From Thioalkalivibrio sp. K90mix (GTDB lineage Bacteria > Pseudomonadota > Gammaproteobacteria > Ectothiorhodospirales > Ectothiorhodospiraceae): a stretch of 64,000 nucleotides of DNA. The stretch is taken from positions 861,501 through 925,500 of the forward strand of contig NC_013889.1 of assembly GCF_000025545.1 (NCBI RefSeq). The letters run 5' to 3'. The notes beneath the pieces were generated by a model that did not search any database, had not been told where the DNA came from, and saw only the letters and a program-made list of their open reading frames with translations. A program made the translations under genes and the position numbers. Below are positions 3,326 through 6,941 of the stretch, piece after piece. Numbering within the stretch: the first letter of the stretch is position 1; every line of letters begins with the position of its first letter.

Positions 3326-4549
3326 TCCCACATCGCCAGGAACCTGTAGATACCGTCTTGCCCTACGGGGTGCAAGGGGTTTCATGGCGGGCTTGATACG
3401 GGGTTTGGGATTTGAGCACACCGAAGGCGATGTGCAGGAGTTTGCGCATAGCCGCCCCGATCGCCGACATCTTGGCCTTGCCGCGTGTCAGCAGACGTTG
3501 ATGCTGGTGTCGCACGTCCGGGTTGTACCGGGTCGCCACCACCGCCGCCATGTAGAGCGCCTTGCGCAGTCGGCTGGAACCGATCTTCGCCAACCGCGAG
3601 GGCCGCCGGACCGTGGTCCCCGATTCTTCCAGGACCGGTGCCAGCCCATGGAACGCCGCCGCTTGTCGAGCGCTCGTGAACGCGCGGCTGCGCAGCGCTG
3701 CGGTCATCGAGGCCGACAGCACGCGGCCGATGCCGGGGATGCTCTCCAGCAAGGTCCGATCCCGCTTCAGGTGGTGATGGGCGTCGAAGTGATCGTCGAT
3801 CTGCTGCTGGAGCCGACGGTGTTCCTCACGCAGGGCCTGCAGGACGTTGTCGATCGACGCCTGAGCGAGGGTGTCCTCACTGAAACGCGCCTTCTCCAGG
3901 CGGTTCTCTTCGCGCCGCATATCCTGTTCCAGAGCCTCCAGGCGGCTGAGCAGGCGCTTGAGTTCCCGCACCTCCGGCGGTTCGGGCTGCCAGCGTCGTG
4001 GTGCGCGTTCGATGCCGTAGCGGGCCAGCATCATGCTGTCCTTGCGGTCGGTCTTGTTGCGCACCCCCATGCCCTTGGCATGCGAACGCACCTGGGCCGG
4101 GTTCAGCACGTGGACCTGCACCCCCTGATCATGAAGCCAGTACGCCAGCGGCTCGTGGTAGATGCCGGTGGCCTCCAGATACACATGGAGCCCCTCGGGG
4201 GTCTCGCCGGTGTTGCGCTCGAGCCAGTGCAGCAGCTCCCGGTACTGGTCTTGGCGGTTCGGGAACACCTTGGGCTTCACCTTGCCCGCCTCCAGATCCC
4301 GGACCCACATGCAGTCGAGCTTGTTCTTGCTAACATCAACGCCAATATGAGCCATCTCGTCCTCTCGCCTTGTCCGTACAGCCTCACCCGTCCGTCACGG
4401 AGGGGGGTCTTGGATACCGTTCAAACTTCGAGATGAGAAAGGACTCGGGGGCCAATCTACAGAACAGGTTCGTGACCTCAGGAGCCTGACGGGTTACCCG
4501 AGCCCAATACGGTTCATGGTAGCGATCCGTGAACCGCAAGACACAAGGA
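3326..4549 (-). mobile_element. IS110-family insertion sequence (ends approximate)
   Basis: A single transposase gene (3363-4355, minus) lies between two REP-like palindromes in opposite orientation. IS110 elements often lack clear terminal inverted repeats and target duplications, so the ends given are only the inner edges of the palindromes. The short stretch GATACCGT occurs near both ends (about 3350 and 4409). About 200 bases upstream of the transposase start hold no gene, as expected for the non-coding end of an IS110 element, which in this group can encode a guide RNA. Confidence 0.55.
3363..4355 (-). CDS. IS110-family transposase (DEDD type)
   Basis: A 330-residue recombinase with an N-terminal RuvC-like DEDD domain: IGVDVSKNKLDC at residues 4-15 carries the first acidic residue, VYLEATGIYH the second, and DRKDSMMLARYG the last pair. 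The C-terminal Transposase_20 half contains the typical IPGIGRVLSASM segment and a conserved serine region, STRL-like in this family. Length and domain order are those of an intact IS110 transposase, with no frameshift or internal stop, so the copy may be active. It sits in the gap between cobM and the convergent cytochrome c' gene and does not interrupt either. Confidence 0.93.
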   Translation of the reverse strand: MAHIGVDVSKNKLDCMWVRDLEAGKVKPKVFPNRQDQYRELLHWLERNTGETPEGLHVYLEATGIYHEPLAYWLHDQGVQVHVLNPAQVRSHAKGMGVRNKTDRKDSMMLARYGIERAPRRWQPEPPEVRELKRLLSRLEALEQDMRREENRLEKARFSEDTLAQASIDNVLQALREEHRRLQQQIDDHFDAHHHLKRDRTLLESIPGIGRVLSASMTAALRSRAFTSARQAAAFHGLAPVLEESGTTVRRPSRLAKIGSSRLRKALYMAAVVATRYNPDVRHQHQRLLTRGKAKMSAIGAAMRKLLHIAFGVLKSQTPYQARHETPCTP

Positions 4550-4595: not shown

Positions 4596-4621
4596 AAGGG
4601 GCCGCCATGCGGCGGCCCCTT
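4596..4621 (-). terminator. Hairpin downstream of the cytochrome c' gene
   Basis: A perfect 11-bp stem (AAGGGGCCGCC / GGCGGCCCCTT) with a 4-base loop lies 14 bases after the stop of the minus-strand cytochrome c' gene. No run of T follows on either strand, so it may be a weak terminator or an mRNA-stabilising 3' end. Confidence 0.55.
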
Positions 4622-5217: not shown

Positions 5218-6333
5218 TCAGAAGCGGAACTGGTGCTGCAGGTGCAGCTCCCAGTCCGAGGTGTCGGTGTCGCGGTCCAGCCACATCAGTTGGGTCTTGT
5301 GCCGCTGGCCACGGTGATACCAGTTGAGGCCGGCACCCCATTCACGCTGCCAGCGCTCGTCAGTGCCAAGATCGTCGCCTGCGTCGTGGCGCAATACGGC
5401 GTGGCGCGCGGCGAACTCCAGTCCCTCCACCGGCAGCGACTGCGCCAGTTCCAGTTCGGCCCCCAGGTCGTGGTAGCTCGCGGTGCGGTCGGGGGAGACA
5501 TCGCGGCGGAAGGCCGCCAGCGACAGCGAGGTATGGGCGAACTTGACCACCGCGTCGGCGGTGGCGGTGATCCAGTCGGCGCGTTGGTTGGCCACCGTGT
5601 CTTCGATGCCGCGGCTCCAGTCGCGCAGGTGGTTGCGGCTGGCGGCCTGTACGCCGGCGCCCAGGGCGACGGTGCGCTCCACGGCCTGGCCTAACGTGGT
5701 GTTGTCACGTGGGACTGCGCCGACCGGGGCCCACGCGCCGCGCGCACTGAACAGGTGGCCGGATGTGGAGGGGCGATCGTCGCGCTGATCCAGACGCCCG
5801 CGACCGTCAAACACGCCGATGGCCCATGCCCGGTTGTCGCCGGCGCCGCCCAGCAGGGCGATACCGGTGTCGCGGCCGGCCGGAACCTCGAACTGGTTGC
5901 CGGCGATGCTCAGTTCGGTGAACAGGCGGTTGGGTCCGCCGATATCCCGCGACAGGCCGAAGGGGACCGTAAACTGGCCAGCCCGCAGGCCCAGGTGTTC
6001 ACCCAGTGCGTACTGCAACCAGATGTCGCGCATGGACAGCTCGCCGCTGCTGAAATCCGGCTGCAGGCGGAAGCTCAGATCGGGGTGGAACAGGGTGCCC
6101 GAGGTGTCCAGCCAGGCACGACGGAAGTCGAATTCGCTGCTGGAGCCATCCGGGTCTCGTTCGTAGCTGTAGCGGCCCTGGATCAGCGGATCCAGGGTGA
6201 CCTGCAGGCCGTCTTCCGCGTCGCCGAATTCGAAGCCGGCTTGTGCCGGCGCGATGCCCGCGGCCGTCATCAGGCACAGGGTGGCCAGGGCCGGGACGGC
6301 ATGCTGTCCCGGTCGGAGATGGGTATGGTTCAT
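5218..6333 (-). CDS. Phosphate-selective porin O/P-like outer membrane protein
   Basis: A 371-residue predicted outer membrane beta-barrel. It has a signal peptide ending near APAQA-G, then alternating amphipathic strands and a C-terminal strand ending in HQFRF with terminal phenylalanine, as in barrel proteins. The block FRLQPDFSSGELSMRDIWLQ and AGQFTVPFGLSR is typical of the OprO/OprP family. The start at 6333 follows GGGAGCAACCCAACA; the frame continues upstream only through the riboswitch. The leader carries a cobalamin riboswitch, which normally controls BtuB or cobalt/B12 genes, so this porin may serve uptake linked to corrinoids or cobalt. The substrate itself cannot be read from the sequence. 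Confidence 0.8.
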   Translation of the reverse strand: MNHTHLRPGQHAVPALATLCLMTAAGIAPAQAGFEFGDAEDGLQVTLDPLIQGRYSYERDPDGSSSEFDFRRAWLDTSGTLFHPDLSFRLQPDFSSGELSMRDIWLQYALGEHLGLRAGQFTVPFGLSRDIGGPNRLFTELSIAGNQFEVPAGRDTGIALLGGAGDNRAWAIGVFDGRGRLDQRDDRPSTSGHLFSARGAWAPVGAVPRDNTTLGQAVERTVALGAGVQAASRNHLRDWSRGIEDTVANQRADWITATADAVVKFAHTSLSLAAFRRDVSPDRTASYHDLGAELELAQSLPVEGLEFAARHAVLRHDAGDDLGTDERWQREWGAGLNWYHRGQRHKTQLMWLDRDTDTSDWELHLQHQFRF

Positions 6334-6464
6334 TGTTGGGTTGCTCCCTTGGACGCGCGACCCCGCACGCCGTGGATGAAACGACGCCGGAAGCTGGACA
6401 GGGAGCAGGGGAGGCCGGGCGATGCGAGCACGCCGGTCTGGCCCGCTCGGCCGCCCACCGCGGC

Positions 6465-6680
6465 GTCGGGTGTCGTCCAGGCCGGTCTCCGGACTCGCGA
6501 AGTGGATGCGCGATGCATCCAGGGCGGATCGCCTTCCCGCGGGCATCCCGGGGATGCGCCGCAGTGGCATTGGATCCGCCCGTCTCCGCCTACCGTTGCG
6601 GGGGCAGTGCCGGCCTTGCGAATGTCGATTCGCGCACCGGCTTCCCGATTATCCCCGGCGGCTGAGCGCCGGGGCACCTA
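6465..6680 (-). promoter_or_regulatory. Cobalamin (AdoCbl) riboswitch
   Basis: Read on the minus strand, the leader shows conserved blocks in order: GGTGCC near 6678, GGGAAGCCGGTG near 6645-6635, GCCGGCACTGCCCCCGCAA at 6614-6596, and the B12 box AGTCCGGAGACCGGCC at 6495-6480. These match the cobalamin riboswitch consensus closely. About 130 bases of expression platform, including GC-rich segments able to pair with the ribosome site region, separate it from the porin ATG at 6333. Ligand binding would be expected to switch the porin and cytochrome c' genes off. Confidence 0.92.
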
Positions 6681-6941
6681 GAGAGGGGCGAACCGTAATG
6701 GAGGGAAAAGAGGGGGTCAAGTTTGTCCGGGTATCCCGGGAAACGGTGTAGTGGGGGCGAACCCGGCTCCCCTGGAGGCTGATAATTGATGCAGATCATC
6801 TCCGGGGCGGATTTTGATCGCGACCAGGTTTCCGCGTCTGTAGGGTGGGTTTTAAGTGGTTTGGACCGAGTCTATTTCGGTTCGCGCCGATATCCGCTTC
6901 TCAGATGTCTGTTACTCATCTGTTACTCAAGGGAGACCTGT
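6681..6941. promoter_or_regulatory. Divergent promoter region between riboswitch and ccp
   Basis: About 260 bases with no gene. It should contain the minus-strand promoter for the riboswitch/porin transcript and the plus-strand promoter for the peroxidase. An 11-base tandem repeat (TCTGTTACTCA twice) occupies 6908-6929, just before the peroxidase ribosome site GGGAGA at 6931-6936. A partly conserved FNR-like sequence, TTGAT-N4-ACCAG, lies near 6812; its second half is poor. No reliable -35/-10 pair could be assigned. Confidence 0.4.

Follow-up and report, generated by a model that had tools for sequence, protein, structure and literature searches.

A cobalamin riboswitch predicted to control a porin and a cytochrome c' in Thioalkalivibrio

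Background

Among the closest described relatives of the locus reported here is the btuB riboswitch, known from E. coli and present in the K90mix btuB leader. It is an RF00174 element with a B12 box, in which an L5-L13 kissing loop, an established feature of riboswitches of this class (PMC9600662), and a block of ribosome binding govern an outer-membrane transport gene. The leader studied here has the same features, the kissing loop and the block of ribosome binding being predicted, but its target is a passive porin of the PF07396 family and not a TonB-dependent receptor, and the gene that comes next encodes a cytochrome c' instead of a cob or btu function. In Novosphingobium, an adenosylcobalamin riboswitch precedes a TonB receptor predicted to serve for cobalt and associated with NiCoT and CobW (PMC7689651). 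In contrast, the present porin has neither plug nor TonB dependence and its operon includes no inner-membrane cobalt transporter. According to the 2021 review, no cobalt-specific outer-membrane receptor has been confirmed (PMC7689651).

In the iron regulons of Geobacter and Desulfuromonas, a porin and a c-type cytochrome are each under control of the metal-starvation type: FUR regulates psp, a porin weakly similar to PF07396, and the cytochrome c gene genX (PMC545781). There, the signal is iron, the regulator is a protein repressor, the cytochrome belongs to PF00034 and the two genes do not form one operon, whereas B12 and an RNA are involved here. The phosphate porins OprP and OprO share the Pfam family PF07396 with the porin described below, which differs from them in being net acidic, in its predicted regulation by B12 and not by phosphate, and in having no significant sequence match to solved porin structures. 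As to Thioalkalivibrio itself, a genus of sulfur bacteria from soda lakes, passages of two transcriptome papers report induction of the B12 pathway in strain ARh2 under arsenite (PMC6620896) and in the cold in two strains, one of which is AL2 (PMC8092127); these main-text passages make no mention of the present porin or cytochrome c' as B12-linked.

Features of the locus

The window, which is the whole stretch of 64,000 nucleotides of Thioalkalivibrio sp. K90mix that was analysed, was scanned with Rfam. The minus-strand leader in which a first-pass annotation had recognised the main cobalamin riboswitch blocks proved to be a full RF00174 element, with a score of 93.3 bits (E 6.7e-22) against a gathering score of 31.5. 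Its B12 box lies where it had been placed, at 6495-6480 (-), and reads AGTCCGGAGACCGGCC, while L5 reads CCACU (6567-6563, (-)). The riboswitch is an ordinary RF00174 member and not a new riboswitch, and its aptamer core is largely invariant across ten leaders. It is one of three cobalamin riboswitches in the K90mix genome, the second heading btuB-adenosyltransferase-cobN-cobO-cobB-cobA and further cob genes, and the third cobD/cobC/cobQ-type genes, with a divergent btu ABC transporter alongside. The candidate promoter upstream keeps the pattern TTG..-N17-TA...T in 10/10 aligned orthologous leaders, 12-13 nt before the aptamer, with a diverging spacer. A generic promoter scan of the window did not list it because its -10 element matches at only 3 of 6 positions. 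All features are collected in Table 1.

The assignment of the first gene to the O/P porin family was borne out by Pfam (57.4 bits against a cut-off of 20.9, residues 62-251), and the protein is, judging by this profile, an ordinary PF07396 member. Its 5' limit had to be moved: the annotation had followed a 450-aa open reading frame from ATG 6570, inside the aptamer, which we rejected in favour of ATG 6333, 142 nt past the aptamer. The latter is likely the real start because it is preceded by a Shine-Dalgarno sequence, opens a signal peptide and is the point from which orthologs are conserved. With a pI of 5.2 for the mature protein and only 2 Lys, the barrel is net acidic, so that the family name gives no grounds for assuming anion or phosphate selectivity. 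A 16-strand barrel is what the family would predict; the AlphaFold2 model of the porin had a pLDDT of 29.6 and was discarded.

The cytochrome c' gene begins 21 bases past the porin stop, as previously noted, and its product scores 49.2 bits with PF01322, of which it appears by profile to be an ordinary member. The haem motif CLACH lies near the C-terminus. In the alignment to PDB 1e83, the residue facing the distal Leu16 is an invariant Met, which would be compatible with either a free haem site or a Met ligand. The hairpin past the cytochrome c' stop is likely a 3'-end structure between two convergent operons; since it has no U-tract, we do not claim termination there.

Table 1. Coordinates of the features of the porin-cytochrome c' operon in the window
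Feature	Position	Strand	Evidence or remark
Candidate sigma-70 promoter TTGACC-N17-TACGGT	6692..6720	(-)	12 nt before conserved AGGTGCC opening the aptamer
Cobalamin riboswitch aptamer (RF00174)	6476..6682	(-)	cmscan 93.3 bits, E 6.7e-22
5' arm common to P13 and anti-P13 helix, CGACGCCG	6461..6468	(-)	Predicted to pair with 6389-6382
P13 hairpin GCCGC-GGUGG-GCGGC	6450..6464	(-)	Sequence; directly 3' of aptamer; 91% of cells paired
Anti-Shine-Dalgarno GCUCCCU	6400..6406	(-)	Predicted Shine-Dalgarno partner; not conserved in G025, G004
3' arm of anti-P13 helix, CGGCGUCG	6382..6389	(-)	About 70 nt downstream of 5' arm
Shine-Dalgarno AGGGAGC of porin	6343..6349	(-)	GGGAG in 10/10 leaders
Outer-membrane porin, 371 aa, PF07396 (Porin_O_P)	5218..6333	(-)	Pfam; signal peptide; C-terminal Phe
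Cytochrome c' (class II cytochrome c), 186 aa	4636..5196	(-)	Pfam, PF01322 49.2 bits (cut-off 26.5)
11-bp perfect GC hairpin past cytochrome c' stop	4596..4621	(-)	Sequence; no U-tract

Expression platform

The loop of P13, L13, reads GGUGG and is complementary to L5 in 7/10 leaders, which predicts a kissing loop; in the 3 others it reads GGCGG, with one A-C mismatch to L5. For the alternative anti-P13 helix, all cells (100%) are paired over nine distinct leaders. In G025 and G004, a C-to-U change in the shared 5' arm is matched by a G-to-A change in both alternative partners, the P13 pair passing from C-G to U-A (n=1). This compensatory double change would support the switching helices but, as a single evolutionary event, it suggests them without proving them. 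The controls on pair counts, made on nine related leaders, are not strong when taken alone.

Next, the window leader was folded with and without P13 imposed. The mean probability that the Shine-Dalgarno sequence pairs with the distal upstream anti-Shine-Dalgarno was 0.97 when P13 was forced versus 0.02 when it was not, and the resulting loss of Shine-Dalgarno accessibility was equalled by 0/100 shuffles. All six other leaders tested shifted in the same way (6/6), with 0 to 10 of 100 shuffles equalling their change in accessibility and the weakest shift in G013. The anti-Shine-Dalgarno is conserved in 8/10 leaders; it is gone from those of G025 and G004, for which folding gives no definite switch. 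The best reading of these models is a translational OFF switch in 8/10 leaders, in two of which (G021 and G022) it is only partial. P13 would be the ligand-bound form by analogy with the known mechanism of the class. Such a modelled switch predicts that the porin and the cytochrome c' are made when B12 is low. It agrees with the earlier description of the porin as B12-repressed, which holds as a predicted repression. An intrinsic terminator was considered as expression platform and rejected, none being found on this strand. In the leaders of G009 and G002 (L013/L014), 52 nt are inserted between expression platform and Shine-Dalgarno sequence, and this insert forms a long, near-perfect hairpin.

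Conservation of the operon

We searched related genomes for the same combination and recovered riboswitch, porin and cytochrome c', in this order, in 11/11 Thioalkalivibrio genomes with the porin. The riboswitch lies about 130-180 nt upstream of the porin and an intact cytochrome c' gene behind it in all of them. The aligned porin orthologs are 79-98% identical, with a 100% identical one in G026. Orthologs of the cytochrome c' occur only where the porin occurs (40 genomes searched), with only a few weak matches below 30 bits elsewhere. The B12 link of the cytochrome c', already pointed out from the sequence, is thus real as genetics, through the shared operon and the strict co-occurrence with the porin; its role is one that we infer. 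Nine close matches in public genomes all belong to Thioalkalivibrio. T. thiocyanoxidans ARh2 and T. versutus AL2 are among them, and both carry the riboswitch-porin-cytochrome module. No close porin was found outside the genus among 276 genomes of the class. No riboswitch was detected in the examined flanks of 7 distant porin homologs.

With the conserved promoter and the coherent expression platform, the recurrence in 11/11 genomes extends the proposed riboswitch control of the two genes beyond a single genome. The novelty lies in the pair of targets, porin and cytochrome c', the riboswitch class being a known one; the pair has so far been seen in one genus. Our literature search, with limited coverage of subscription journals, retrieved no report of such a pair as a riboswitch target and no earlier description of a cytochrome c' among the predicted B12-riboswitch targets.

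Genomic neighbourhood

The genes cobL-E-M had been located just past the IS110 element, and their position is right, but they are convergent with the porin operon and form the end of the btuB-cob cluster, itself headed by a separate riboswitch. A single operon joining the porin to cobL-E-M was rejected on this orientation. The IS110-type transposase (window 3363-4355) lies between the convergent cytochrome c' and cobM genes. In relatives without the insertion sequence, about 60 bp separate these two genes (e.g. L054), which indicates a recent insertion. A divergent di-haem peroxidase gene adjoins the module. Strains that lack the module still have this gene next to their cob genes, and it is therefore no part of the module.

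G001 and G011 lack the cobA-to-porin segment and retain btuB, cobN, cobB and the peroxidase gene. The CobN-like protein of the btuB operon (G000 C1, L004:4251-8837, upstream of the window) appears to have a signal peptide, a stretch rich in His and a membrane anchor at its C-terminus, and persists in strains without CobL (G001, G011). It may have a role in uptake rather than in corrin metallation.

Co-occurrence with B12 synthesis and cobalt transport

Presence of the module was compared with that of CobL in 23 congeners: 9 have both, 11 have neither, 1 (G007) has CobL alone and 2 (G025 and G027) the module alone. The module is thus present in 9/10 CobL-bearing congeners. The Fisher test gave p 0.0006, a value that overstates the association because related strains share ancestry. 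Since the module abuts cobM, a single deletion may explain the joint loss in G001 and G011. The pattern supports a link to de novo synthesis and falls short of proof, given the proximity of the genes and the relatedness of the strains.

We also examined the distribution of cobalt transporters. A strong CbiM match was absent from 11/11 module-bearing genomes and was found in three congeners without the module (G010, G012 and G016) and in two relatives of the same family (G032 and G317). It was likewise absent from G001, G011 and G023, which have neither module nor CobL. CbtA was absent from all genomes searched, and a NicO-type transporter protein was present in all of them. The K90mix genome itself shows only a weak CbiM match, no CbtA and one NicO protein away from the operon, which consists of the porin and cytochrome c' genes only and encodes no CbiMNQO, CbtA or NicO transporter.

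Possible function

We give a probability of about 0.5 to the reading in which a B12-repressed two-gene operon brings a cobalt source through the outer membrane. Transcription would start just before the aptamer. When adenosylcobalamin is scarce, CGACGCCG would pair with CGGCGUCG, the anti-Shine-Dalgarno would be trapped in a long hairpin and the porin would be translated. When adenosylcobalamin is bound, L5 would kiss L13, P13 would form and the freed anti-Shine-Dalgarno would take the Shine-Dalgarno sequence, stopping translation of the porin; synthesis of the cytochrome c' would follow through coupling or polarity. At low B12, the porin would widen the passive entry of cobalt, as an ion or a small complex. 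The periplasmic cytochrome c' might conceivably assist, for instance by keeping cobalt reduced or by preventing oxidants or NO from disturbing uptake or corrin chemistry. Its function is the least certain part, control of the cobalt redox state and a guard against oxidants or NO being both possible. A more specific proposal, a dedicated TonB-independent outer-membrane route for cobalt with a periplasmic haem protein acting on the redox state of the metal under direct B12 feedback, is tentative and less likely than not.

Ordinary passive porins have a size limit below complete corrinoids, and corrinoid entry is already covered in the same genome by btuB under its own riboswitch; cobalt is thus favoured over complete corrinoids as the substrate. 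The cobalt route fits best with the presence of btuB, the missing strong CbiM in genomes with the module, the module in 9/10 CobL-bearing congeners and the FUR iron precedent; it is weakened by the three phyletic exceptions (G007, G025 and G027) and by the physical linkage. Also counting against it are the lack of a strong CbiM in G001, G011 and G023, the NicO-type transporters in all genomes and the missing anti-Shine-Dalgarno of G025 and G004. Two of the phyletic exceptions, G025 and G027, would fit a porin that admits corrinoid precursors or small building blocks (e.g. dimethylbenzimidazole, incomplete corrinoids) for salvage and not cobalt: they keep the module without CobL, G025 with cobB and cobO, and the operon adjoins corrinoid genes. 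However, other salvage-type strains (G001, G011 and G023) have btuB and not the module, and the porin size limit and the presence of btuB speak against complete corrinoids, so that we consider salvage rather improbable.

The cytochrome c' could also point to a module for redox or NO/oxidant protection, induced at low B12, whose porin admits some other solute, cobalt being uninvolved. NO and CO are ligands of cytochrome c' proteins, which are tied to nitrosative stress, and the divergent di-haem peroxidase gene lies next door. The rise of B12 genes under arsenite and cold in Thioalkalivibrio is read as oxidative-stress protection in passages of the two transcriptome papers (PMC6620896, PMC8092127). 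Protection is nevertheless unlikely: the peroxidase gene also accompanies the cob genes where the module is lacking, a B12-responsive RNA would be an odd sensor, and the family showed no further target of this kind. That the riboswitch is a relic or a chance placement from rearrangement of the cob cluster, no longer controlling the porin, is very improbable. It does lie near other B12 genes, which are often deleted or moved in the genus, but orthologs with as little as 79% protein identity still share the promoter, aptamer and switch helices, a compensatory change affects both alternative helices, and 8/10 leaders have the anti-Shine-Dalgarno. With the cobalt reading, the porin becomes a candidate for the passage of cobalt across the outer membrane that can be tested in culturable strains, for which regulation of B12 genes is already documented in transcriptomes. 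The cytochrome c' joins the predicted B12-riboswitch targets.

Other riboswitch targets in the family

The targets of cobalamin riboswitches that could be identified in the family comprise btuB, cob genes, cobW together with cobN, CbiM-type cobalt transport, a BluB-like nitroreductase, ribonucleotide reductases and TonB receptors. This range of targets favours the cobalt reading. In G032, a cobalamin riboswitch (L062) lies before a His-rich BBP2-type porin. We rejected this porin as a second case, as a transposase gene lies in between and 13 relatives have no riboswitch in the flanks examined. In G005, a fourth cobalamin riboswitch (L080, C4:284507-284743) heads a TonB-dependent receptor gene followed by that of a PepSY_TM protein, again an outer-membrane gene with a possible redox partner.
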